Of a stretch of DNA of 64,000 bases, positions 22,240 through 53,815 are shown one piece after another (the first letter of the stretch is position 1; each line of letters begins with the position of its first letter). The translations under genes and the position numbers were made by a program. The DNA is from Anadara kagoshimensis (Eukaryota > Mollusca > Bivalvia > Arcoida > Arcidae): positions 33,964,185 through 34,028,184 of the forward strand of contig CM037874.1 of NCBI GenBank assembly GCA_021292105.1. The letters run 5' to 3'. The notes beneath the pieces are model-generated. The model saw nothing but the letters and a program-made list of their open reading frames with translations. It was not told the DNA's origin and made no database searches.

Positions 22240-22354
22240 TACAACGAGAGAGAGAGAGAGAGAGAGAGAACGTTGTCTCAAATAATGATTTGCACGTGAA
22301 ATGTTTTAAGTTTGTCAAGGTTAAGTATCGCCGTTCTTAAATGAATTAAGTAAG

Positions 22355-22411
<57 letters not shown>

Positions 22412-22502
22412 ATTGTCTTAAATAATAATTTGCACGTGAAATGTTTTAAGTTTGTCAAGTATCACCGTTCCTCAATGAATTTCTGTAAAAATTATATGGT
22501 AC

Positions 22503-22545
<43 letters not shown>

Positions 22546-22580
22546 ATTGTATCAAATAATGATTTGCACGTGAATTGTGA
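22240..22580. repeat. Triplicated unit with (GA)n tracts
   Basis: Three tandem units of about 110-150 bp. Each has a GA microsatellite followed by CATTGT and AATAATGATTTGCACGTGAA. The GA tracts differ in length from about 25 to 54 bp. Confidence 0.85.
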
Positions 22581-23220
22581 TAAGAATGCTATTTCGTACA
22601 AAAATCTTGTAAACAAAAATGTTTAGCACTGGTACATGACGCATTATAACACCATATGATTATTGATAACTATTGATAAATTTAAACAATTTTGAGTAAT
22701 TTTATACACAAATTTATGAAAACAGTATCCGTCCTTGTCAAGCATGTGAAGTGTTGCGTATCAACATATTGTCGACAAGTATTTCTTATGCAAATTAGCT
22801 CAGAATTTCCATGTTCGAAATGGTTTCGACCGAAATGTAGGACTTAGACAAATTAGCCGTTGCTCAAAATTGACCAAAATTTTCAGAGTATGGGGCTTAT
22901 AATTAACTGAGAACAGTTTAAGGATAGAAATATTAAAAATCAATTACGTCATGAATCGTACAATAGACGTACGATTTTACTTTTACAATAAAACGTTTCG
23001 TTTTAGAGAATTTTACGAAAAACCGAGAGACTAAAGGATCGTAAATGGACTTGAGTGACCAATTGCTGCAGAGAGATAATTAGCAGTTGCCAAATATAGC
23101 TAATGATGGACTAAGATTATCAGCTGTCGATTCGGCACTGATTATGATAAACTTGTTAGCTCAGTGTTAAACTTTCGACAGATCTGTGCTGGATCTATTG
23201 ATTATAATTAGGCTACCTAC
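22581..23220. other. Non-coding, no gene recognised
   Basis: AT-rich. A short piece at 23160-23190 (GTGTTAAACTTTCGACAG) matches the end of the MITE at 54236-54453. Confidence 0.4.
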
Positions 23221-24728: not shown

Positions 24729-25985
24729 AAAAATGAGTAAATAAATAAGCGTCATCACTATTTTAATATTTTTATGAAGCAGACTTTTAACTTTACAGTT
24801 TCTTACTTTTATCTTTGCTTCTTCTTTCATCAACTTTAAGATTCCAAGCTTTCCAAAGTACAGTGCAGACCCATCGAAAGATTAACACTAAGTAACAAAT
24901 TAGTTCCGAATTGGTAACGCATTTTAGTTCGTCTATAGCTATATTTCTGCAGATTTTGGCAAGCTAATATCTTTTGGTAGTTTTCGGCCTCTAGTTATCC
25001 GTGTCTCGGTCACTTTACAGCCATTCATTCATTCATTCATTCATTCATTCATTCATTCATTCATTCATTCATTCATTCATTCATTCAATTATTCATTCAT
25101 TCATTCATTCATTCATTCAATTATTCATTCATTCATTCATTCATTCAAACTTTATTCACTCTAAACCACCGGAGGTCGTACAAGAGGTATATTTACATTA
25201 TAGTAATATAGAATCCGATGCCTGCATCACAATGTTTACAATAAATATACATTTCATACATACAAACATTTAATATAAATACATAATTCCACAGTGTTTA
25301 TAATAATAATAAAAAGTACATATTTTCCAGTAATAAGTGTATGTGTGTTAATATTGTCCGAAATCAACTAAAACATTTTAGACCTTCTTTTATCTATTTA
25401 CTGAGATTATATTAATGAGTGTATCTAAATCTTGAATGTTAAATAATTGATGTAAATTCAGTATATTTGGTCTTTTCCAGAAACGTTCTTTTATGTATTT
25501 TGACCTTATATTTTTTTAATTTTTTACACTGAAACAAAAAATCAATTCGTCTCCCATAATATTTTGATAAAAAATACAAAAACGTTCATCTCTAGGAGTT
25601 CTATTCCACCCACCAGATTCTATAGGTGACTTGTGATTCGAGGTTCTGAACTTAAACATATAAGACCAATAATAATCTGGGTTCCGAGTTTCGACTTTTT
25701 CCCATTAGCTTCGTGTTTAACTTTTGACATAGATGCACTGAGTATGTAAACAAATTGCTGCAAACACAACCGTCTTAAATTGCCCATTTTTCATAAAGAC
25801 CGTACTTGGTCACTGTGATAGATTTCACTAGCTTGTGATCTTTATTTTATTGATTTATTGATTGATTGATTGATTTATTTATTTAAAATGTTTTAATCTA
25901 TTTATAAAAGTTTAACGGTGTAAATTAATTTATTTCTATATTCATTAATTAAAAATGTATGAACTATTTTTTTAATTTTATTAAT

Positions 25986-26078: not shown

Positions 26079-26227
26079 ATGAAAGAGGAAAAACGAGATA
26101 AAAGGCAACACAAATCGTGGGTTATAACAGATAGTTATTCCGACGTTTTAATTGGACAGAAAAGCAAAAAGACTGAAAATAATGATGTGAGAAATCAAAC
26201 TGAACGTGGCGAAACTCCCTTGACATT

Positions 26228-26560
26228 TAGTCGAGTAGGCATTTTATGAACCTAGAAATGTTCATTCCTATGAAGTTTTTTTGCTGTTTTGTTTTCCTTA
26301 TGGGTCCTTGAACAAAACTAACTTAGTTGCCCTTCGGGCAAATTTGGGCAACTTGCACAATATACAGAAATCCAAAATGGCAGCCAAACGTCAAATTAAA
26401 ATACATACTGCGATATAAAATATCTTCCAATAGGTTGTAATATATCCTTTTATATGTTTTTTTAGGCATGAGGAACCCATTTCTGGTGTTAATTTTTACA
26501 TACGGAACACTTAACTCACACAATAAGCTATAAACACAAGATGACCGACGGACGCCATCT
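26228..26560 (+). repeat. Left terminal inverted repeat of the 3.34-kb element
   Basis: Pairs with 29235-29568. It contains CCAAAATGGCAGCC, a YY1-consensus-like site also kept in the other arm. Confidence 0.8.
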
Positions 26561-26829
26561 TGAAATATTGATTTTGTACAAAAACAAATTTATAATAGAT
26601 TGCCATACATCTTTGCAGGGGTATTTAGGCAGGGGCAACTCAATTCTGGCATTAGTTTTACATTAAATACCATCATGTCTATAATGACCGACTATATTTG
26701 TCAAATAACTTTTCACCCTTGTGTAAAAATTCAAACACTCCCTTTCTCCAAAACAGTTACAAAATTATATACAGAATTTGTTTTAGGCAAGCATGTCCTT
26801 GTGTGTTGCACTTATGATTTTGTGCCTTA

Positions 26830-28150
26830 CATTGACATAACACGACAAAGAAGTTCTTTGGGCGCTGGATATCCTTTCGCTATAACATGTAATGAGAATT
26901 GATCTTTGAATTTCAATCCGAAATTGGTTATCATCTCATACTGCTTAGGAGGATCTTGACTGTCGGTACCCTTTCACAACATTAACTAAAGGTGTGACAA
27001 CAGAAAATGGCGTTTGATACAAAGTTAAAACTATAAGGCTTTGGTGTTACTTATGAAGAACCTATGGAAACGTCACAGTTTTCCCTGCTGGCTGGCAATA
27101 CAGAACAACAAAGAATGGTTCAGATCCCATAAAATTATTTGGGATCTTTGTTGACCACATCAGCTAAATGAGGAGAATAAGAGTTTGTAATTATGATGTT
27201 GTATCACAACCACTAAGAACATGCATACATAACAGCTCAAGATATCTCGAACGAAGTCCATGTCCCTAAGAGCATTCATGCCTGGTGATTCAAGACATCT
27301 CGATCCAAGACCATCACACTTACAGTGTGCATGCCTGGCTGTTCAAGACATCTCGAACCAAGACCACGACACTGAGAGCATGCATGCCTGACAGTAAAAG
27401 ACATCTCAAACCAAGACCACGACACTGAGAGCATGCATGCCGGACAGTTAAAGACATCTCAAACCAAGACCACGACACTGAGAGCATGCATGTCTGGCAG
27501 TTAAAGACATCTCAAATCAAGACCATAGTTAGTTGCATTGATGTTCAAAAACTTATATCCTATTACTCCATCTGTACATCACATTATTTTCATGCGTATA
27601 CACCCAATACACTAGGGAAACAAAAACATCTGTGCCGTCAATCAGCACACAAATGATATCATGACCTGTCTGTGCAGCCTGGAGAACATACGATACCATA
27701 GTTATGCCGGATTCATCATGGCCGAATCCACAATCGTATACATATTGCTGTGGTGTTCCCTCTGTCCTGGTTTCTTAGAATATATGAGATGTTATTTGTC
27801 GAAAAACAAGATTTTCTTAGAAGTGTCTGGGTACCAATATGACCTTTTTTGGATTGATGCAATGAAATCTGATGGGTTAACCCCATTGATCAAGAGATGT
27901 GGTAGAAAAACTGTGAATCATTGTGATTGTGAGTTTTGGGTGAACGAACTCTACAAAGCGATTTGTCTAGAGCTGACTTAATTCCTTTTTCAATGACAAC
28001 TTTTTTCTACCAATGTCAAAAAAGGAACAGAACCGATTACAAATGCAAGCAGAAACTACGCTCAAACTGCCCTTGCTGTCCAAACAACGATAACCAAAGA
28101 AACATGTTTCCAAGATCAATAACTGGCTTTGTTTTTGCATCTTGACAGCG
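26830..28150 (-). pseudogene. XPG/FEN1-like nuclease gene remnant inside the 3.34-kb element
   Basis: Minus-strand fragments in three frames, in order. SGITMVSYVLQAAQTGHDII at about 27700 is the position of a family HEEADT-type block. Next comes DGTDVFVSLVYWVY (DTDV-type metal site), then GMHALS repeated in the 53-bp array (27237-27527), where the family has HAxxGCDT. YEMITNFGLKFKDQF and YPAPKELL near 26900 come before the usual Cys-rich tail. I know this block order from uncharacterised metazoan proteins. It parallels the acidic clusters and the GCDY helix-turn-helix of XPG/FEN1 nucleases. There are multiple stops and shifts, and the acidic residues are partly replaced. The region above about 27760 is probably the N-terminal part but is not readable. 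Confidence 0.55.
27237..27527. repeat. 53-bp tandem repeat, ~5.5 copies
   Basis: Unit around AGACATCTCAAACCAAGACC and ACTGAGAGCATGCATGCC. On the minus strand each unit contains the GMHALS codons of the nuclease-like gene. Confidence 0.9.
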
Positions 28151-28895
28151 TCGCTTTGAAACGAATTGTCTTTATTATCTATATAAAGCCAATGATGGCA
28201 TTGTAAAACTCATCAGGTAGACCGGATTGTACTCTTATTCCATCTTCACATCCATTGCAACTGAATCCACAATAAGCAATATATTTTGGTCATATATATC
28301 CAATAAACATCGAGGATTAAACTCTTTGAGTTATGGTTCGTATCACACTCAGAATATATTCATTCCAATCGATCAGAGAAGCACCAATCTACCCACTAAA
28401 AGGATCAGGCTAGAGAGTTATGCCTTTTTCAAATTTGATAGCAGTTTGTACTCCAAACTGGTTAACCAAGACAGCATCCTAATAATCACTATGGTGTCGA
28501 CATGCAATATCCTCAACAGGACATGCATGTGTTTATAGCAGACACTGATAAAGTTTACCAGCATATTGTACATGTCCAGCATCCAATAAAATCATTTGTT
28601 GGGTTTGTTAATCAGGATACAAATAGTTTTGGTGGTATACAGTGCAAGGGTATTATTTTCTGCAGTCCAGTATAATTTATATGTGAAACAGCAGTTTCAG
28701 GTCTAGATTTCGAGATGCTGCTTAATGGTAACTTAGGTAAGTTGAGACACCAGAAGTAAGCCAAATCTTCACTGTGCACTACCTTTTCACTTATACCACA
28801 TGAATGAACATGGAAGTCTGTATTTATAACGTGTGTCTTATAGCGGCCATTTGGAGTGGAAATAGTTAATTAAAATATCAAAACTATCATAAAAC

Positions 28896-28946
28896 CAACA
28901 AAAAAACAAAAAACAAACAAACAAACAAACAAACAAAAAAAAAAAG
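28896..28946. repeat. (CAAA)n microsatellite
   Basis: CAAA units followed by an A run, inside the 3.34-kb element. Confidence 0.9.
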
Positions 28947-29234
28947 TTCTACTGTTCAACTCCAACCAAACAATTTGTGGAAAGTTGTGCATTATCAGTG
29001 ACAGATTTTGCTGCAGATTCCCGAAACCATAATACTTCATTACATGAAGTAATGTATCAATGTTTATGTAAAAGTCGAATCAATTCACTGCTGCCAAAGA
29101 TTATGTTTTTAATTTCTTATTAAAAGGAATTGTGCGAGCCTCATTTATGACCTTTTAATCAAAACGTATCAAGATGCATGGTTAAGTTACACAGCATTGA
29201 ATGTGATATGCTGAGTTAATCTAATTATAATAAA

Positions 29235-29568
29235 CCCTTTTTTGGTCAAAATTGTTATATATACTTTCAAAATGTCCCAAATGTTAAAAACAACAACGGA
29301 AATGAGTCTCTTATCACTAAAAAAACATATAAAACGGTATATTGCAAGCTATTGTAGAACAATTTTTACAAAAGATAGATTTTCAATATGGCGTCAGGCA
29401 GCCATCTTGGATATATGCAAATTATTCAATTTGCCCAATGTTGCCTCCAGGGCAACTAACCTAATTTTACTCTAGGGACCCTATAGAATACAAAACAGCA
29501 AAAAAACTTCATAGGAAAAAACATTTCTAGGTTCAAGTATTGAGTATATGGGAGTGTCAACTCGACTA
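29235..29568 (-). repeat. Right terminal inverted repeat of the 3.34-kb element
   Basis: Inverse of 26228-26560, with an extra ~20 bp near the tip. It contains CAGCCATCTTGG, the inverse YY1-like site. Confidence 0.8.
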
Positions 29569-30258
29569 ATTGGCGGTTATGAACGGAGACACCGACAGAG
29601 TTATAGAAATTCTTAATGCAGGTGTCTCTGTTTGTGACGTAAATATAAGCGGCTATTCGCCTCTGGCGTTGAGCATTTACACTAAACAAAGTAAAATAGT
29701 GCCACTTTTGAAGAAACATGGTGCTGAATTAGTGACAAAGAAAGATATTTCATTGATAAATGATGTACTGTCCGATTTAGATGAAGACTTGTTGGATTAT
29801 GCCTTGAAGAGCGGATGTGACGTCAATTTCTGTGACCCAAAAGGGAGACTACCACTTGTAATGGCCGTGGAATCTATCAACATACGTAAAGTTAATTTAC
29901 TTCTAAACTACCAAGCTGATATCAGCAAATGTGACATGAACTCCGTATGTCCACTCAAACAGGCAGTCGACACTTGCAATGTTTATCGGAAGGCAACGTT
30001 TCATGACATCGAGTTGTTGAAATTATATGAAAACACTTTGGAAATAGCAGAGATACTTCTGAAGAAAGCTGGACTAATTACGACAGATTACATTATCGAA
30101 GCTATCTCGGCCAACAGTACTCTTCTGATAAAGAAACTTTTATGTTACGTCTCTGCTGTAGATCCATCTGTGTATACGGATTATCATAGGATTGTCAAAA
30201 ACACATCTAAAAGTACAGAGATTTTCGATACGCTTATCGATGCTGGTGTGGACATCAT

Positions 30259-30878
30259 CACTAAAAGGGGATTTTACCGGAATAATTGCAAAAATCCGGA
30301 ATAATCAGACCAAATCCGGAATAAACCAAATTGATCCGGAATAATCAGGTAAAGTCCGGAATAAACCGGTAAAATCCGGAATAATCAGGCAAAATCCGGA
30401 ATAATTGGACTATTTTGTTACGGTAAGTTTTCCGTAATCTAAAAATTACGGTGTCTGATTATTCCGGAAAATGACAGATTATTACGGAAAAAGTCTAATT
30501 ATTCCGGCAAATGTCCAATTATTACGGGAAATTTTCTAAAAAATAATAATTTTTTTAATTTTTTTTACCATAATAATTGGACATTTGCCGGAATATTTAG
30601 ATTTTTACCGTAATAATCAGTCTTTTACCGGAATAATCAGACAAGTTACCGTAATAATCAGACACTTGCCGGAATTTTTAGAATCCGTAAAATTTACCGT
30701 AAAAATATTCTTATTATTCCGGATTTTGACCAATTATTCCGGATTTTGTCCGATTATTTCGGATTTGGTCTAAAAATTCCGGAATTGATCTAAACATTCC
30801 GGATTTTCGCAAAGATTACGGAAAGTGTCTTACTATTCCGGAATTTCGCAATTATTCCGGTAAAAACCCCTTCTAGTG
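30259..30878. mobile_element. 620-bp CACTA-like MITE in the ANK-SOCS coding region
   Basis: Ends are CACTAAAAGGGG and CCCCTTCTAGTG, i.e. CACTA(A/G)AAGGGG in inverse. Both arms continue with TTTTACCGGAATAATTGC. The whole element is built of degenerate CCGGAATAATCAG-type units on either strand. The flanks CAT and TAA do not form a clean 3-bp duplication. Removing 30256-30878 gives GAC ATT AAT ATG AAA, the ankyrin frame VDINMKDRNG. Confidence 0.75.
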
Positions 30879-31796
30879 TAATATGAAAGATCGTAATGGA
30901 AAGCTGGCTTTGTGTAAAGCGGTTGCCATGGGAAACGAATATGTGTCTGAAAGTTTGATCCAAATGGGCGCCAATGGCAATACCACTGATGGAGCAAATC
31001 AAACTGCTTTTGCTATAGCGTTGTTGCAGAAAGATAAATTTGGTTATGCAAAGCGAATGGTTTTGGAAGGAAACATTAATTTAGAACACCAGTTGTCTAT
31101 TTGCTTCAAAAAATTATCAGTTAGGCGTTTTGAGTATTTATTGAAATTAGGAGCGGATCCTTTTAAAAGACTTGAAAATGAACAAACAGTAATCACTGAC
31201 ATCGCAGTGTTTCTTCTACTCAGACATTCTCCATTAGGTTTCAACGACCACACATTTCTGTTTACGGGCAAATGGAGGGCGTTACTTAGAGAATGCGGAT
31301 TAATGACCTGTCACCCCAAAAAGGAAAATAAACTCTTCTATGACCTTTATAATTAACCTGCAAATCATTTAAAAAAGCCTTGGCAAAATACAATGCTCTT
31401 TTTGATGAAGCGTTTCAAACAAATCGCCAAGCGATTCAACGGTATGCTCACTACATGTTAAATACTATAGTTCAGTTATTGAAATTAGGTACGGTTGTAC
31501 CGATTTATGATATTTTCAACAAAGTTCATTGTGAAGAAACAGAATGCATGTGTGATTTCTTGAAGAAGGATCTTGGACTTAAAGACATGTACAATGATAA
31601 ATCACTATACCATGGAGTCTTAATAGAGCCAGTTAGCTTGCAAATGCAATGTCGGACAGCTGTGAGATGCGCGATGCGCACTAGCTGTGTCAACAAGACG
31701 AAGTGTTTACCTCTACCCGACAGTATTAAAAGATTCTTGATCTTTGACGGGGAGATTTTAGTTTTGGAGGACTTATTTGACCTTGAGAAACGATAG

Positions 31797-40513: not shown

Positions 40514-41513
40514 NNNNNNNNNNNNNNNNNNNNNNNNNNNNNNNNNNNNNNNNNNNNNNNNNNNNNNNNNNNNNNNNNNNNNNNNNNNNNNNNNNNNNNN
40601 NNNNNNNNNNNNNNNNNNNNNNNNNNNNNNNNNNNNNNNNNNNNNNNNNNNNNNNNNNNNNNNNNNNNNNNNNNNNNNNNNNNNNNNNNNNNNNNNNNNN
40701 NNNNNNNNNNNNNNNNNNNNNNNNNNNNNNNNNNNNNNNNNNNNNNNNNNNNNNNNNNNNNNNNNNNNNNNNNNNNNNNNNNNNNNNNNNNNNNNNNNNN
40801 NNNNNNNNNNNNNNNNNNNNNNNNNNNNNNNNNNNNNNNNNNNNNNNNNNNNNNNNNNNNNNNNNNNNNNNNNNNNNNNNNNNNNNNNNNNNNNNNNNNN
40901 NNNNNNNNNNNNNNNNNNNNNNNNNNNNNNNNNNNNNNNNNNNNNNNNNNNNNNNNNNNNNNNNNNNNNNNNNNNNNNNNNNNNNNNNNNNNNNNNNNNN
41001 NNNNNNNNNNNNNNNNNNNNNNNNNNNNNNNNNNNNNNNNNNNNNNNNNNNNNNNNNNNNNNNNNNNNNNNNNNNNNNNNNNNNNNNNNNNNNNNNNNNN
41101 NNNNNNNNNNNNNNNNNNNNNNNNNNNNNNNNNNNNNNNNNNNNNNNNNNNNNNNNNNNNNNNNNNNNNNNNNNNNNNNNNNNNNNNNNNNNNNNNNNNN
41201 NNNNNNNNNNNNNNNNNNNNNNNNNNNNNNNNNNNNNNNNNNNNNNNNNNNNNNNNNNNNNNNNNNNNNNNNNNNNNNNNNNNNNNNNNNNNNNNNNNNN
41301 NNNNNNNNNNNNNNNNNNNNNNNNNNNNNNNNNNNNNNNNNNNNNNNNNNNNNNNNNNNNNNNNNNNNNNNNNNNNNNNNNNNNNNNNNNNNNNNNNNNN
41401 NNNNNNNNNNNNNNNNNNNNNNNNNNNNNNNNNNNNNNNNNNNNNNNNNNNNNNNNNNNNNNNNNNNNNNNNNNNNNNNNNNNNNNNNNNNNNNNNNNNN
41501 NNNNNNNNNNNNN
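40514..41513. other. Assembly gap (1000 N)
   Basis: Exactly 1000 unknown bases, a conventional scaffold gap. Frames reported across it are artefacts. Confidence 0.99.
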
Positions 41514-44500
41514 GGAATTTCGCAATCATTGTACTACTATGCTTAGGCAATGTCACTACCACAAGTATGGTTACCCCCAGTGCCTCGGAACACATTGGCT
41601 TACAGCTTCAATGTAAGCCCATGCCATTATATACAGTATTTCATAAAGACGGAAAGTAAAGTGCCTGAGCAAAGTGAAGCTTTCACTGTGCTCGGAATTT
41701 CGCAATATCATTTTGTACTACTGTGCTTAGGCAATGTCACTACCAAGTATGGTTACCCCCAGTGCCTCGGAACACATTGGCTTAAAGCTTCAATGTAAGC
41801 CCATACCATTATATACAGTATTTCATAAGACGGAAAGTAAAGTGCCTGAGCAAAGTGAAGCTTTCACTGTGCTCGGAATTTCGCAATATCATTTTGTACT
41901 ACTATGCTTAGGCAATGTCACTACCAAGTATGGTTACCCCCAGTGCCTCGGAACACATTGGCTTAAAGCTTCAATGTAAGCCCTACCATTATATACAGTA
42001 TTTCATAAAGACGGAAAGTAAAGTGCCTGAGCAAGTGAAGCTTTCACTGTGCTCGGAATTTCGCAATATCATTTTGTACTACTATGCTTAGGCAATGTCA
42101 CTACCAAGTATGGTTACCCCCAGTGCCTCGGAACACATTGGCTTAAAGCTTCAATGTAAGCCCATACCATTATATACAGTATTTCATAAAGACGGAAAGT
42201 AAAGTGCCTGAGCAAAGTGAAGCTTTCACTGTGCTCGGAATTTCGCAATATCATTTTGTACTACTATGCTTAGGCAATGTCACTACCAAGTATGGTTACC
42301 CCCAGTGCCTCGGACACATTGGCTTAAAGCTTCAATGTAAGCCCATACCATTATATACAGTATTTCATAAGACGGAAAGTAAAGTGCCTGAGCAAAGTGA
42401 AGCTTTCACTGTGCTCGGAATTTCGCAATATCATTTTGTACTACTACTATGCTAGGCAATGTCACTACCAAGTATGGTTACCCCCAGTGCCTCGGAACAC
42501 ATTGGCTTACAGCTTCAATGTAAGCCCATGCCATTATATACAGTATTTCATAAAGACGGAAAGTAAAGTGCCTGAGCAAAGTGAAGCTTTCACTGTGCTC
42601 GGAATTTCGCAATATCATTTTGTACTACTGTGCTTAGGCAATGTCACTACCAAGTATGGTTACCCCCAGTGCCTCGGAACACATTGGCTTAAAGCTTCAA
42701 TGTAAGCCCATACCATTATATACAGTATTCATAAAGACGAAAGTAAAGTGCCTGAGCAAAGTGAAGCTTTCACTGTGCTCGGAATTTCGCAATATCATTT
42801 TGTACTACTATGCTTAGGCAATGTCACTACCAAGTATGGTTACCCCCAGTGCTCGAACACATTGGCTTAAAGCTTCAATGTAAGCCCATACCATTATATA
42901 CAGTATTTCATAAAGACGGAAAGTAAAGTGCCTGAGCAAAGTGAAGCTTTCACTGTGCTCGGAATTTCGCAATATCATTTGTACTACTATGCTTAGGCAA
43001 TGTCACTACCAGTATGGTTACCCCCAGTGCCTCGGAACACATTGGCTTAAAGCTTCAATGTAAGCCCATACCATTATATACGTATTTCATAAAGACGGAA
43101 AGTAAAGTGCCTGAGCAAAGTGAAGCTTTCACTGTGCTCGGAATTTCGCAATATCATTTTGTACTACTATGCTTAGGCAATGTCACTACCAAGTATGGTT
43201 ACCCCCAGTGCCTCGGAACACATTGGCTTACAGCTTCAATGTAAGCCCATGCCATTATATACAGTATTTCATAAAGACGGAAAGTAAAGTGCCTGAGCAA
43301 AGTGAAGCTTTCACTGTGCTCGGAATTTCGCAATATCATTTTGTACTACTGTGCTTAGGCAATGTCACTACCAAGTATGGTTACCCCCAGTGCCTCGGAA
43401 CACATTGGCTTAAAGCTTCAATGTAAGCCCATACCATTATATACAGTATTTCATAAAGACGAAAGTAAAGTGCCTGAGCAAAGTGAAGCTTTCACTGTGC
43501 TCGGAATTTCGCAATATCATTTTGTACTACTATGCTTAGGCAATGTCACTACCAAGTATGGTTACCCCCAGTGCCTCGGAACACATTGGCTTAAAGCTTC
43601 AATGTAAGCCCATACCATTATATACAGTATTTCATAAAGACGGAAAGTAAAGTGCCTGAGCAAAGTGAAGCTTTCACTGTGCTCGGAATTTCGCAATATC
43701 ATTTTGTACTACTATGCTTAGGCAATGTCACTACCAAGTATGGTTACCCCCAGTGCCTCGGAACACATTGGCTTAAAGCTTCAATGTAAGCCCATACCAT
43801 TATACAGTATTTCATAAAGACGGAAAGTAAAGTGCCTGAGCAAAGTGAAGCTTTCACTGTGCTCGGAATTTCGCAATATCATTTTGTACTACTATGCTTA
43901 GGCAATGTCACTACCAAGTATGGTTACCCCCAGTGCCTCGGAACACATTGGCTTAAAGCTTCAATGTAAGCCCATACCATTATATACAGTATTTCATAAA
44001 GACGAAAGTAAAGTGCCTGAGCAAAGTGAAGCTTTCACTGTGCTCGGAATTTCGCAATATCATTTTGTACTACTATGCTTAGGCAATGTCACTACCAAGT
44101 ATGGTTACCCCCAGTGCCTCGGAACACATTGGCTTACAGCTTCAATGTAAGCCCATGCCATTATATACAGTATTTCATAAAGACGGAAAGTAAATGCCTG
44201 AGCAAAGTGAAGCTTTCACTGTGCTCGGAATTTCGCAATATCATTTTGTACTACTGTGCTTAGGCAATGTCACTACCAAGTATGGTTACCCCCAGTGCCT
44301 CGGAACACATTGGCTTAAAGCTTCAATGTAAGCCCATACCATTATACAGTATTTCATAAAGACGGAAAGTAAAGTGCCTGAGCAAAGTGAAGCTTTCACT
44401 GTGCTCGGAATTTCGCAATATCATTTTGTACTACTATGCTTAGGCAATGTCACTACCAAGTATGGTTACCCCCAGTGCCTCGGAACACATTGGCTTAAAG

Positions 44501-47500
44501 CTTCAATGTAAGCCCATACCATTATATACAGTATTTCATAAAGACGGAAAGTAAAGTGCCTGAGCAAAGTGAAGCTTTCACTGTGCTCGGAATTTCGCAA
44601 TATCATTTTGTACTACTATGCTTAGGCAATGTCACTACCAAGTATGGTTACCCCCAGTGCCTCGGAACACATTGGCTTAAAGCTTCAATGTAAGCCCATA
44701 CCATTATATACAGTATTTCATAAAGACGGAAAGTAAAGTGCCTGAGCAAAGTGAAGCTTTCACTGTGCTCGGAATTTCGCAATATCATTTTGTACTACTA
44801 TGCTTAGGCAATGTCACTACCAAGTATGGTTACCCCCAGTGCCTCGGAACACATTGGCTTACAGCTTCAATGTAAGCCCATGCCATTATATACAGTATTT
44901 CATAAAGACGGAAAGTAAAGTGCCTGAGCAAAGTGAAGCTTTCACTGTGCTCGGAATTTCGCAATATCATTTTGTACTACTGTGCTTAGGCAATGTCACT
45001 ACCAAGTATGGTTACCCCCAGTGCCTCGGAACACATTGGCTTAAAGCTTCAATGTAAGCCCATACCATTATATACAGTATTTCATAAAGACGGAAAGTAA
45101 AGTGCCTGAGCAAAGTGAAGCTTTCCTGTGCTCGGAATTTCGCAATATCATTTTGTACTACTATGCTTAGGCAATGTCACTACCAAGTATGGTTACCCCC
45201 AGTGCCTCGGAACACATTGGCTTAAAGCTTCAATGTAAGCCCATACCATTATATACAGTATTTCATAAAGACGGAAAGTAAAGTGCCTGAGCAAAGTGAA
45301 GCTTTCACTGTGCTCGGAATTTCGCAATATCATTTTGTACTACTATGCTTAGGCAATGTCACTACCAAGTATGGTTACCCCCAGTGCCTCGGAACACATT
45401 GGCTTAAAGCTTCAATGTAAGCCCATACCATTATATACAGTATTTCATAAAGACGGAAAGTAAAGTGCCTGAGCAAAGTGAAGCTTTCACTGTGCTCGGA
45501 ATTTCGCAATATCATTTTGTACTACTATGCTTAGGCAATGTCACTACCAAGTATGGTTACCCCCAGTGCCTCGGAACACATTGGCTTAAAGCTTCAATGT
45601 AAGCCCATACCATTATATACAGTATTTCATAAAGACGGAAAGTAAAGTGCCTGAGCAAAGTGAAGCTTTCACTGTGCTCGGAATTTCGCAATATCATTTT
45701 GTACTACTATGCTTAGGCAATGTCACTACCAAGTATGGTTACCCCAGTGCCTCGGAACACATTGGCTTACAGCTTCAATGTAAGCCCATGCCATTATATA
45801 CAGTATTTCATAAAGACGGAAAGTAAAGTGCCTGAGCAAAGTGAAGCTTTCACTGTGCTCGGAATTTCGCAATATCATTTTGTACTACTGTGCTTAGGCA
45901 ATGTCACTACCAAGTATGGTTACCCCCAGTGCCTCGGAACACATTGGCTTAAAGCTTCAATGTAAGCCCATACCATTATATACAGTATTTCATAAAGACG
46001 GAAAGTAAAGTGCCTGAGCAAAGTGAAGCTTTCACTGTGCTCGGAATTTCGCAATATCATTTTGTACTACTATGCTTAGGCAATGTCACTACCAAGTATG
46101 GTTACCCCCAGTGCCTCGGAACACATTGGCTTAAAGCTTCAATGTAAGCCATACCATTATATACAGTATTTCATAAAGACGGAAAGTAAAGTGCCTGAGC
46201 AAGTGAAGCTTTCACTGTGCTCGGAATTTCGCAATATCATTTTGTACTACTATGCTTAGGCAATGTCACTACCAAGTATGGTTACCCCCAGTGCCTCGGA
46301 ACACATTGGCTTAAGCTTCATGTAAGCCCATACCATTATATACAGTATTTCATAAAGACGGAAAGTAAAGTGCCTGAGCAAAGTGAAGCTTTCACTGTGC
46401 TCTGAATTTCGCAATATCATTTTGTACTACTATGCTTAGGCAATGTCACTACCAAGTATGGTTACCCCCAGTGCCTCGGAACACATTGGCTTAAAGCTTC
46501 AATGTAAGCCCATACCATTATATACAGTATTTCATAAAGACGGAAAGTAAAGTGCCTGAGCAAAGTGAAGCTTTCACTGTGCTCGGAATTTCGCAATATC
46601 ATTTTGTACTACTATGCTTAGGCAATGTCACTACCAAGTATGGTTACCCCCAGTGCCTCGGAACACATTGGCTTAAAGCTTCAATGTAAGCCCATACCAT
46701 TATATACAGTATTTCATAAAGACGGAAAGTAAAGTGCCTGAGCAAAGTGAAGCTTTCACTGTGCTCGGAATTTCGCAATATCATTTTGTACTACTATGCT
46801 TAGGCAATGTCACTACCAAGTATGGTTACCCCGTGCCTCGGAACACATTGGCTTACAGCTTCAATGTAAGCCCATGCCATTATATACAGTATTTCATAAA
46901 GACGGAAAGTAAAGTGCCTGAGCAAAGTGAAGCTTTCACTGTGCTCGGAATTTCGCAATATCATTTTGTACTACTGTGCTTAGGCAATGTCACTACCAAG
47001 TATGGTTACCCCCAGTGCCTCGGAACACATTGGCTTAAAGCTTCAATGTAAGCCCATACCATTATATACAGTATTTCATAAAGACGGAAAGTAAAGTGCC
47101 TGAGCAAAGTGAAGCTTTCACTGTGCTCGGAATTTCGCAATATCATTTTGTACTACTATGCTTAGGCAATGTCACTACCAAGTATGGTTACCCCCAGTGC
47201 CTCGGAAACATTGGCTTAAAGCTTCAATGTAAGCCCATACCATTATATACAGTATTTCATAAAGACGGAAAGTAAAGTGCCTGAGCAAAGTGAAGCTTTC
47301 ACTGTGCTCGGAATTTCGCAATATCATTTTGTACTACTATGCTTAGGCAATGTCACTACCAAGTATGGTTACCCCCGTGCCTCGGAACACATTGGCTTAA
47401 AGCTTCAATGTAAGCCCATACCATTATATACAGTATTTCATAAAGACGGAAAGTAAAGTGCCTGAGCAAAGTGAAGCTTTCACTGTGCTCGGAATTTCGC

Positions 47501-47590
47501 AATATCATTTTGTACTACTATGCTTAGGCAATGTCACTACCAAGTATGGTTACCCCCAGTGCCTCGGAACACATTGGCTTACAGCTTCAA
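41514..47590 (+). repeat. 182-bp satellite, homogeneous array (~33 copies)
   Basis: The unit begins GGAATTTCGCAATATCATTT, contains GCTTAGGCAATGTCACTACC and GCCTCGGAACACATTGGC, and ends AAGCTTTCACTGTGCTC. Units are nearly identical apart from single-base losses. A variant unit (CTTACAGCTTC with CCCATGCC, followed by ACTACTGTGC in the next unit) recurs near 41600, 42508, 43230, 44137, 44861, 45769, 46855 and 47580. The array runs into the assembly gap, so its true length is unknown. Confidence 0.97.
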
Positions 47591-48589
47591 TATAAGCATT
47601 TTTGAGTTTTGAAATAGACCGCGGAAATGTTCATTCAGTTTCGTATTTATCGTGTTTTTTGAAAAGCGATAGTCGAATCTGCAATGTTTTGCTACATTTA
47701 AGATATTATTTTATTGTATTTAAGAAGCATTTCTATAAAATACAAATGATGACAGTGATAGCCCCGTGGTAGTTGTCATGGACATTTTTGTTAAGTAATT
47801 TTGTGGTTAGACCGTGGACGAAAATCCGAAACTGTGGACAAATGTACGAACTTGTGACAAAAATCCGAAACGATGGACAAAAATACAAATACATGTATTC
47901 ATTCTTAACTTAATGGAACTTTCAATTTGATGTGTCAATTTTTCTTTTGTTTGATGAAAAACGTTTTCAGATATCAATCTAATTAATTACTTTCGGAACA
48001 ATTGTCCCTATTTTGAGTTTGACTGCCCAGAGCCCTTGCCTTTCGATTATATCAAATTTTGATATGTTACTTTCGGAACATATGTTCTGAGGGTCTCAGA
48101 TCTATTTCTTTGATTTTCAAAAATGTGTTCTCTAGATCATTTTCTATTCTATAGTGACAATGCCATATGAGGTGTTACATACAATATGTCATTTCACAAA
48201 TTACCAAACAGTGAAAGTTTCATTTCGCCCGAACATTTTACTTTATGCATATTCCAAGGGCTTAGATCGATGAGATCCAAGGCACTGTACTGAAGAGAAC
48301 CATACTTGGTAGTGACATTTTTTATAATTTATTTATTAACTTCAATTTATAATTGTCAATAAAATGAAAGCGTCATCATGCCAGAACCTTTAATTTCTAC
48401 ATATGTATAATTTATTGTGTAATGGCATTTGATTAGATTGATGCTTTAGGTCAAAGTGTCCCAAAGATCTACAGGAACAGTACTTAGTAGTGACATAGTA
48501 TCATAATAGTAAATCAACACGATGTTATCAACCGTTTACCATAATATAAGCCTAACTATGCTAGAACACTTTACTTAACGACAAAATGA
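47591..48589. other. Spacer between the two satellite arrays, with eroded satellite
   Basis: 47591-48100 is not satellite (repeated ATCCGAAAC and GTGGACAAA words near 47820-47880). 48100-48589 has weak satellite similarity in reverse orientation, such as CATACTTGGTAGTGACATT at about 48302 and CAGTGAAAGTTTCA at about 48210. Confidence 0.7.
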
Positions 48590-51500
48590 AATATACGGAA
48601 CGTCTACATTGTTCAGGCGGTTTACTTTCCGTCTATATAAAATATACTTTATAATGGCATGGGCTTACATTAAAGCTTTAAGCCAATGTGTTCCGAGGCA
48701 TTGAGGGTAACCATACTTGGTAGTGACATTGTCCAGGCAAAAAAGTATTAAATGTTATTTCGAAATCCCGAGCACAGTGAAAGTTTCACTTTGTTAAGGC
48801 ACTTTACTTTCCGTCTATATGAAATACACTGTATAATGGTATGGGCTTACATTAAAGCTTTCAGCCAATGTGTTCCTAGGCACTGGGGGCAACCATACTT
48901 GGTAGTGACATTGCCTAAGCATAGTAGAACAAAATGATATTCCGAAATTCCGAGCACAGTGAAAGATTCACTTTGCTTAGGCACTTTACTTTCCGTCTTT
49001 ATGAAATAAACTGTATAATGGTATGGGCTTATATTCAAGCTTTAAGTCAATGTGTTCCGAGGCACTGGGGGTAACTATACTTAATAGTGACATTGCCTAA
49101 GCATAGTAGTACAAAATGATATTCCGAAATTCCGAGCACAGTCAAAGCTTCACTTTTCTCAGGCACTTTACTTTCCATCTTTATGAAATACACTGTATAA
49201 TGGTATGGGCTTGCAGTGAAGCTTAAAGCCAACGTGTTCCGAGGCACTGGGTGCAACCACACTTGGTAGTGACATTGCCTAAGCATAGTAGTACAAAATG
49301 ATGTTCTGAAATTCCGAGCACAGTGAAAGCTTCACTTTGCTCAGGCACTTTACTTTCCGTCTTTATAAAATACACCGTATAATGGTATGGGCTTACATTG
49401 AAACTTTAAGCTAACGTGTTCCGAAGCACTGGGGGTAACCATACTTAACAGTGATATTGCCTAAGCATAGTAGTACAAAATAATATTCCGAAATTCTGAG
49501 CACAGTAAAAGCTTCACTTTGCTCAGGCACTTTACTTTCCGTCTTTATGAAATACAGTGTATAATGGTATGGGCTTACATTGAAGCTTTAAGCCAATGTG
49601 TTTCGAGGCACTGGGGGCAACCATACTTGGTAGTGACATTGCCTAAGCATAGTAGTACAAAATGATATTCCGAAATTCCGAGAACAGTCAAAGATTCACT
49701 GTGCTTAGGCACTTTACTTTTCGTCTTTATGAAATACACTGTATAATGGTATGGGCTTATATTGAAGCTTTAAGCCAATGTAATCCGAGGCCCTGGGGGT
49801 AACCATACTTGGTAGTGACATTGCCTATGCATAGTAGTACAAAATGATATTCCGAAATTCCGAGCACAGTGAAAGCTTCACTTTGCTCAGGCACTTTACT
49901 TTCCGTCTTTATAAAATACACTGTATAATGGTATGGGCTTACATTAAAGCTTTAAGCCAATGTGTTCCGAGGCATTGAGGGTAACCATACTTGGTAGTGA
50001 CATTGTCCAGGCAAAAAAGTATTAAATGTTATTTCGAAATCCCGAGCACAGTGAAAGTTTCACTTTGCTCAGGCACTTTACTTTCCGTCTATATGAAATA
50101 CACTGTATAATGGTATGGGCTTACATTGAAGCTTTCAGCCAATGTGTTCCTAGGCACTGGGGGTAACCATACTTGGTAGTGACATTGCCTAAGCATAGTA
50201 GAACAAAATGATATTGCGAAATTCCGAGCACAGTGAAAGATTCACTTTGCTTAGGCACTTTACTTTCCGTCTTTATGAAATAAACTGTATATTGGTATGG
50301 GCTTACATTCAAGCTTTAAGTCAATGTGTTTCGAGGCACTGGGTGCAACCACACTTGGTAGTGACATTGCCTAAGCAAAGTAGTACAAAATGATATTCCG
50401 AAATTCCGAGCACAGTCAATGATTCACTGTGCTTAGGCACTTTACTTTCCGTCTTTATGAAATACACTGTATAATGGTATGGGCTTATATTGAAGCTTTA
50501 AGCCAATATCCGAGGCCCTTGGGGTAACCATACTTGGTAGTGACATTGCCTATGCATAGTAGTACAAACTGATATTCCGAAATTCCGAGCACAGTGAAAG
50601 CTTCACTTTGCTCAGGCACTTTACTTTCCGTCTTTATAAAATACACTGTATAATGGTATGGGCTTACATTAAAGCTTTAAGCCAATGTGTTTCGAGGCAC
50701 TGGGGGTAACCATACTTGGTAGTGACATTGCCTAAGCATAGTAGTACAAAACCATATTCCGAAATTTCGAGCACAGTGAAAGCTTCACTTTGCTCAGGCA
50801 CTTAACTTTCCGTTTTTATAAAATACACTGTATAATGGTATGGGCTTACATTAAAGCTTTAAGTCAATGTGTTCCGAGGCACTGGGGGTAACCATACTTG
50901 ATAGTGACATTGCCTAAGCATAGTAGTACAAAATGATATTCTGAAATTTCAAGGACAGTGTAAGCTTCACTTTGCTCAGGCACTTTACTTTCCGTCTTTA
51001 TGAAATACACTGTATAATGGTATTGACTTACATTGAAGCTTTAAGCCAATGTGTTCTGAGGTACTGGGGGTAACCATACTTGGTAGTAACATTGCCTAAG
51101 CATAGTAGTACAAAATGATGTTCTGAAATTCTGAGCACAGTGAAAGCTTCACTTTGCTCAGGCACTTTACTTTCCGTCTTTATAAAATACACCGTATAAT
51201 GGTATGGGCTTACATTGAAGGTTTAAGCTAACGTGTTCCGAAGCACTGGGGGTAACCATACTTAACAGTGACATTGCCTAAGCATAGTAGTACAAAATAA
51301 TATTCCGAAATTCTGAGCACAGTGAAACCTTCACTTTGCTCAGGCACTTTACTTTCCGTCTTTATGAAATACACTGTATATTGGTATGGGCTTACATGAA
51401 GCTTAAAGCCAACGTGTTCCGAGGTACTGGGTGTAACCATACTTGGTAGTAACATTGCCTTAGCAGAGTAGTACAAAATGATGTTCTGAAATTCTGAGCA

Positions 51501-53815
51501 CAGTGAAAGCATCACTTTGCTCAGGCACTTTATTTTCCGTCTTTATGAAATACAGTGTATAATGGAATGGGCTTACATTGAAGCTTTAAGTCAATGTGTT
51601 TCGAGGCACTGGGTATAACCATACTTGGTAGTGACATTGCCTAAGCATAGTAGTACAAAATGATATTCCGAAATTCCCAGCACAATCAAAGATTCACTGT
51701 GCTTAGGCACTTTACTTTCCGTCTTTATAAAATACACTGTATAATGGTATGGGCTTATATTGAAGCTTTAAGCCAATGTAATCCGAGGCCCTGGGGGTAA
51801 CCATACTTGGTAGTGACATTGCCTATGCATAGTAGTACAAACTGATTTTCTGAAATTCCGAGCACAGTGAAAGCTTCACTTTGCTCAGGCACTTTACTTT
51901 CCGTCTTTATAAAATACACTGTATAATGGTATGGGCTTACATTAAAACTTTAAGCCAATGTGTTCCGAGGCACTGGTGGTAACCATACTTGGTAGTGACA
52001 TTGCTTATGCATAGTAGTACAAAATGATATACCGAAATTTTGAGCACAGTGAAAGCTTTACTTTGCTCAAGCACTTTACTTTCCGTCTTTATGAAATACT
52101 GTATATAATGGTATGGGCTTACATTGAAGCTTTAAGCCAATGTGTTCCGAGGCACTGGGGGTAACCATACTTGGTAGTGACATTGCCTAAGCATAGTAGT
52201 ACAAAACCATATTCCGAAATTTCGAGCACAGTGAAAGCTTCACTTTGCTCGGGCACTTTACTTTCCGTTTTTATGAAATTCACTGTATAATGGTATGGAC
52301 TTACATTGAAGCTTTAAGCCAATGTGTTCTGAGGCACTGGGGGTAACCATACTTGGTAGTGACATTGCCTATGCATATTAGTACAAAATGGTGTTCTGAA
52401 ATTCCGAGCAAAGTGAAAGCTTCACTTTGCTTAGGCACTTTACTTTCCGTCTTTATGAAATACACTGTATAATGGTATGGACTTACATTGAAGCTTTAAG
52501 CAAATGTGTTCCGAGGCACTGGGGGTAACCATACTTGGTAGTGACATTGCCTAAGCAAAGTAGTACAAAAATGATATTCCGAAATTCCGAGCACAGTGAA
52601 AGCTTTACTTTGCTCAGGCACTTTACTTTCCGTCTTTATAAAATACACTGTATAATGGTATGGGCTTATATTGAAGCTTTAAGCCAATGTGTTCCGAAGC
52701 ACTGGGGGTAACCATACTTGGTAGTGACATTGCCTTAGCATAGTATTACAAAATGATGTTCTGAAATTCCGAGCACAGTGAAAGATTTACTTTGCTTAGG
52801 CACTTTACTTTCCGTCTTTATCAAATACACTGTATTATGGTATGGGCTTGCATTGAAACTTAAAGCCAACGTGTTTCGAGGTACTGGGGGTAACCATAAT
52901 TGATACTGACATTGCCTAAGCATAGAAGTACAAAATGATGTTCTGAAATTCCGAGCACAGTGAAAGCTTCACTTTGCTTAGGCACTTTACTTTCCGTCTT
53001 TATGAAATACACTGTATAATGGTATGGGTTTCCATTGAAGCTTTAAGCCAATGTGTTCCGAGGGACTGGGGGTAACCATACTTGGTAGTGACATTGCCTA
53101 AGCATAGTAGTACAAAATGATATGACGAAATTCCGAGCACAGTGAAAGCTTCACTTTGCTCAGGCACTTTACTTTCCGTCTTTATAAAATACTGTATATA
53201 ATGGTATGGGCTAACATTGAAGCTTTAAGTCAATGTGTTCCGAGGCACTGGGGGTAACCATACTTGATAGTGACATTGCCTAAGCATAGTAGTACAAAAT
53301 GATATTCCGAAATTCCGAGCACAGTGAAAGCTTCACTTTGCTCAGGCACTTTACTTTCCGTCTTTATGAAATACACTGTAGAATGGTATGGGCTTGCATT
53401 GAAGCTTAAAGCCAACGTGTTTCGAGGTACTTGGGGTAACCATACTTGGTAGTGACATTGCCTAAGCATAGTAGTACAAAATGATGTTCTGAAATTCCGA
53501 GCACAGTGAAAGCTTCACTTTGCTCAGGCACTTTACTTTCCGTCTTTATGAAATACACTGTATAATGGTATGGGCTTACATTGAAGCTTTAAGCCAATGT
53601 GTTCCGAGGCACTGGGGGTAACCATACTTGGTAGTGACATTGCCTAAGCATAGTAGTACAACATTGTGTTCTGAAATTCCGAGCACAGTGAAAGCTTCAC
53701 TTTACTTAGGCACTTTACTTTCCGTCTTTATCAAATACACTGTATAATGGTATGGGCTTACATTGAAGCTTTAAGCCAATGTGTTCCGAGGCACTGGGGT
53801 AACCATACTGGTGAC
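48590..53815 (-). repeat. 182-bp satellite, inverted divergent array (~29 copies)
   Basis: Same unit in reverse: ACCATACTTGGTAGTGACAT, CCTAAGCATAGTAGTACAAA, CAGTGAAAGCTTCACTTTGC and CTTTACTTTCCGTCTTTATG. Units differ from each other far more than in the left array. The array ends sharply near 53815. Confidence 0.97.

Follow-up and report, generated by a model that had tools for sequence, protein, structure and literature searches.

A transposon that left a clean 3-bp footprint interrupts one of two ANK-SOCS gene copies in the bivalve Anadara kagoshimensis

In Anadara kagoshimensis, we found one copy of an ANK-SOCS gene interrupted by a transposon whose footprint is a clean three bases. The window, by which we mean the whole stretch of 64,000 nucleotides analysed here (C18:33964185-34028184), belongs to an assembly of 1.115 Gb in 36 contigs that also contains an uninterrupted copy of the gene. 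Our reading of the locus as a whole, to which we give a probability of about 0.85, is that an AcademX-type element was inserted with the help of a transposase acting in trans, that ATT was duplicated, and that the result is a null-like allele of which the intact copy is the other haplotype. What we observed directly are the insert with its duplication, the site in its empty state and the broken frame; the remaining parts of this mechanism are inferred.

The element (insert 1 in Table 1) begins with TAGTCGAGT and ends with ACTCGACTA, is flanked on either side by ATT, and lies at codon 50, in the first ankyrin repeat of the gene. When it is excised and a single ATT is retained, the joined flanks read ...GETPLTLAVMNGD... 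and encode TPLTLAVMNGD in frame. A preliminary description of this DNA had placed a 3.34-kb transposon with an ATT duplication at this site, and its boundaries for both proved correct to the base. It had also proposed that RGETPLT and LAVMNGDTDRV rejoin without a change of frame, which they do, and the uninterrupted genomic copy is identical there. The end motif alone gives no proof beyond chance, because TTAGTCGAGT with at most one mismatch has three occurrences in the window, where 3.41 are expected; its two exact matches in the window are the two ends of insert 1.

Table 1. Features of the interrupted gene copy, its insertions and the neighbouring gap (window positions)
Feature	Position	Strand	Basis
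ANK-SOCS first piece, from ATG, ending with the left ATT inside codon 50	26079..26227	+	4 substitutions/149 vs uninterrupted copy
Left target-site duplication, ATT	26225..26227	.	sequence
Insert 1, 3,341-bp terminal-inverted-repeat transposon	26228..29568	.	ends, flanks, other genomic copies
Left terminal inverted repeat, imperfect	26228..26512	+	alignment
Decayed transposon-protein remnant, parts of L063 ORF residues ~256-917, ordered, several frames	26702..28580	-	tblastn
53-bp tandem array within insert 1, size varies among copies	27237..27525	.	repeat analysis, copy comparison
Right terminal inverted repeat, imperfect	29270..29568	-	alignment
Right target-site duplication, ATT	29569..29571	.	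sequence
ANK-SOCS second piece, ankyrin repeats	29572..30258	+	Pfam Ank_2 2.7e-12 (29570-30256); 23 substitutions/687
Insert 2, 620-bp fold-back MITE, CACTA...TAGTG ends, no duplication here	30259..30878	.	vs uninterrupted copy
ANK-SOCS third piece	30879..31348	+	5 substitutions/470
5-bp insertion, frameshift and early stop, exact bases ambiguous in a T/A run	31349..31353	.	vs uninterrupted copy
ANK-SOCS last piece, SOCS box and stop	31354..31796	+	Pfam SOCS_box 2.9e-9; 10 substitutions/440
1,000-N gap between two homologous stretches	40514..41513	.	sequence

The identity of the interrupted gene as ANK-SOCS, also part of the preliminary description, was confirmed by Pfam, which recognises both the ankyrin repeats and the SOCS box. 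A genome search that took the gene's SOCS end as query, and that covers copies having such an end, gave four places (22 of 22 candidates scored). Besides the window itself, these are a match at C18:34456088-34456501 with 93% amino-acid identity, located inside a 592-codon open frame, and two remote relatives on C7 that are 38-39% identical to the query. The open frame, which runs stop to stop over C18:34454756-34456504 and encodes 582 amino acids from its ATG, is the uninterrupted copy; it lies about 461 kb from the window copy in the same assembly and matches Pfam Ank_2 (7.5e-16) and SOCS_box (2.2e-9). Its empty site reads CTTGACATTGGCGG, with one ATT and no intron. With this pre-insertion sequence at hand, and with the inserted segment being a multicopy element, the earlier claim of an insertion into a real gene holds. 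We take the encoded protein to be of the ASB type, with which the uninterrupted copy shares its ankyrin repeats and C-terminal SOCS box, whereas the window copy is broken at three places. ASB-type ANK-SOCS proteins bind Elongin B/C-Cullin5. A bacterial ankyrin identity was rejected for the uninterrupted protein, whose best NCBIfam score was 44 against a cut-off of 600 bits; the two have nothing but ankyrin repeats in common.

Insert 1 is one of many related copies in the genome. With its left 340 bases as query, we found at least 40 matches at 96-100% identity, the window's own included (40 scored of 1,124 first-look candidates). Copies with both ends were recovered from 20 of the 23 loci fetched, and none from L023, L027 or L041. 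This search used the end sequences of insert 1 as its pattern, so the equal ends are partly a matter of construction and the flanking duplications serve as the independent test. All 20 copies carry such duplications (3 bp in 19 copies, 4 bp in one), and the target words vary, which is more than chance would give. An earlier pass, in which the ends were taken from BLAST alignments, yielded the same tips at 17 loci. At L023 (C14:21424461-21430735) we observed three left ends of the family in one orientation with a spacing of about 2.67 kb; these may be shortened copies arrayed head to tail.

The long terminal inverted repeats of the preliminary description are present, but they are not the clean repeats of about 340 bp that it proposed: they measure about 285-299 bp and are about 75% alike past the tips. 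A 9-bp identical tip is followed by about 266 bp at about 75% identity, with bases 20-285 of the left repeat aligned to bases 34-299 of the right one, counted from the tips. The internal 53-bp array is expanded in some copies (L028, L022).

There is no open transposase frame in the window copy of insert 1, whose longest stop-to-stop frame measures 121 amino acids. A minus-strand peptide from it gave at least 150 genomic matches (150 scored of 850 candidates). Long open frames do occur in the genome, with at least three of 900 amino acids or more among 150 scored rows, found with a generic peptide of that sort as query. One relative, L063, has an ORF of 952 amino acids from its first start codon, and tblastn matches pieces of it (within residues 256-917) to insert 1 in order and in several frames; the other 20 copies match this ORF likewise, with varying completeness. 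One flank of L063 is 79% alike to the subterminal region of insert 1 over 396 bp, the other 67% over 453 bp. Together, the ordered protein matches and the shared flanks identify insert 1 as a decayed relative of a protein-coding transposon.

Academ proteins contain a transposase and an XPG-type nuclease motif. In the 952-aa ORF of L063, Pfam found no transposase or XPG domain; DUF6589 scored 20.4 bits, under its cut-off of 27, and TCR matched at E 6.8. Pfam searches with three insert-1 ORFs and two remnant peptides returned no significant family, and PDB searches with the remnant peptide and the 952-aa relative returned nothing under E 0.1. Insert 1 is nevertheless likely of the AcademX type, Academ being the best fit as compared by published description. 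AcademX is described with duplications of 3 or 4 bp and an encoded nuclease (PMC10045372), Academ is given 3-bp duplications (PMC5199201), and an amplification of Academ in bivalves is reported (PMC10294476). Insert 1 shares with AcademX the 3-4 bp duplications, the terminal inverted repeats and the kinship to a large-protein element, but differs in having no open transposase frame; as to the nuclease, Pfam gave no XPG match in the related L063 ORF. Zator, for which a source gives a 3-bp target-site duplication (PMC10045372), agrees with insert 1 in that feature; as to the ISAzo13-like transposase of Zator, the related L063 ORF has no Pfam transposase match.

Relative to the uninterrupted copy, the window gene carries three lesions: insert 1, insert 2 and, near 31349, an insertion of 5 bp. 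The last two are absent from the preliminary description. Insert 2 folds back across nearly its whole length (z -34, 20 shuffles), and a genome search placed it at a minimum of 40 other sites at 91-97% identity (1,042 candidates). At the window site no duplication was seen, and the flanks join precisely as they do in the empty copy. A family that inserts without duplication was set aside, as 3-bp duplications were visible by eye in 11 of the 11 other copies viewed, and the loss of one repeat at the window site is the simplest reading. Presumably, insert 2 is a MITE of the CACTA/EnSpm type: its inverted CACTA termini and the 3-bp duplications of the 11 other copies are like those of such elements, while the near-whole-length fold-back and the missing duplication of the window copy set it apart. 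The 5-bp insertion could be the footprint of an excised element.

The presence of three lesions in a single copy raises the question of their order. If the 5-bp change or the MITE came first, the gene copy was already dead when insert 1 arrived, and its loss was not caused by insert 1. We hold this to be a real, if tentative, possibility, against which nothing decisive speaks. Between the two gene copies we counted 42 substitutions over 1,746 coding bases, 15 of them synonymous and 27 non-synonymous, and the resulting pN/pS of 0.48 shows some constraint, across the joint history of both copies only.

Insert 1 itself probably arrived after the two gene copies had separated, judging by its private substitutions and its distance to the nearest copy when set against the divergence between the gene copies. 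Over 3,304 columns, 12 substitutions are private to it, and it differs from the 20 other copies by 1.12-11.31%, the nearest being at 1.12%. Continued mobility of the AcademX-type family in this animal is doubtful, and we consider it unlikely. In its favour are transposase-dead copies that are only 1-2% apart with their duplications intact, an insertion that probably came after the gene copies had diverged, and relatives whose open frames, at least 900 amino acids long, could drive the family; however, the single relative that was read (L063) is only 67-79% alike in DNA.

Next to the insertion stands the question of what the uninterrupted copy is. On the left side of the gap, blocks of window 17229-39739 line up collinearly with 23 kb from C18:34444400. 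About 730 window bases without a counterpart follow, and alignment then resumes, immediately past the final block of the other copy, with the last 46 bases before the gap (score 57; 200 shuffles reached 34 at most). On the right side, window 54000-55500 matches C18:33559743-33560984 at 88-95%, and among the matches listed (40 of 6,236 candidates scored) none lies near +458 kb. The shift is thus +461 kb on the left side and, reciprocally, -458 kb on the right. Judged from the two ends of the stretch, about 460 kb seem to be shared between the end of one contig and the start of the next. To find the second copy so placed on the far side of a scaffold gap suggests the other allele, although a tandem duplication whose junction fell at the gap would look alike.

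A 182-bp satellite occupies about 12 kb at the opening of the right contig (window 41514-53809). We observed it as two large arrays in opposite orientations beside the gap, 41514-47597 and 48609-53809. The satellite unit is absent from L061, from L062, from the 23 kb of the other copy and from the window left of the gap. Collinear homology in the left contig starts at window 53961, right past the satellite arrays, with none further left in L061. Either a haplotype-specific array where the assembly broke or a satellite marking a duplication junction would account for this difference. With the satellite missing from the matching place in the left contig, the odds of an allele over a duplication come down from roughly 4:1 to roughly 7:3, and at these odds the uninterrupted copy is probably the second haplotype kept in the assembly.

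Under the opposite reading, which we consider unlikely, the intact copy would be a paralogue created by a tandem segmental duplication of about 460 kb, and the window copy would be decaying to a pseudogene. This would exclude the allele part of our interpretation alone and is compatible with the insertion itself. The two homologous stretches do stand on one scaffold, 458-461 kb apart; their divergence, 600 substitutions in 15,371 aligned bases or 3.9%, is much for alleles in many animals; and a satellite in the right contig with no counterpart at the matching place in the left one is easily explained as a junction satellite. However, the homology of the left copy reaches the last 46 bases before the gap, which requires the junction to fall exactly at the gap. 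The divergence is also uneven, ranging from 2 to 8% per block across 12 blocks (12 of the 17 aligned blocks entered the count; three inverted and two off-diagonal blocks were left out), and the ANK-SOCS relatives on C7, at 38-39% identity, do not form near-identical pairs (22 of 22 candidates scored).

Other differences between the two copies were seen in the same region. Window 25469-25918, 450 bp bounded by the short direct repeat TGTAAATT, is missing from the other copy, through either a deletion there or an insertion in the window, and window 22353-23190 is inverted around the other gene copy at 95% likeness, a small inversion between the copies. Gene presence-absence variation is reported for a mussel (PMC7653742); a broken and an intact copy would likewise occur in one animal here, but through transposon insertions into an exon, whereas whole genes are absent there.

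That insert 1 is a spliced intron or introner and not a disabling insertion is very improbable: its flanks rejoin in frame and 19 frame-keeping GT/AG pairs occur in the ranges searched, but the uninterrupted copy has no intron at the site, the exact ends are TA...TA and not GT...AG, an in-frame TAA immediately precedes the TTG at 29570, the longest GT/AG choice still costs about six ankyrin residues, and the sequence occurs elsewhere in the genome with new short duplications. The intronless uninterrupted copy and the dispersed-repeat nature of the segment lead us to reject its identity as an intron, while the 19 pairs would still allow a spliced, damaged protein.

For the insertion that we favour, the sequence of events is most likely as follows. 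Transposase supplied in trans by a relative would cut out a transposase-dead copy, which would then be pasted into a staggered 3-bp cut at codon 50, with duplication of ATT. The reading frame ends seven codons into insert 1 (ORF 26079-26249), which would leave the window gene copy without a full-length ankyrin-SOCS protein and presumably without function. The sequenced animal would thus probably be heterozygous for a triple-broken, null-like allele.

Such an insertion is an ordinary process, well documented here. With a break in a coding exon and its empty site in one assembly, heterozygosity, age and the effect on a presumed ubiquitin-ligase adaptor become testable. Both haplotypes may stand in tandem on part of the scaffold and, if this is true, gene counts would be inflated.
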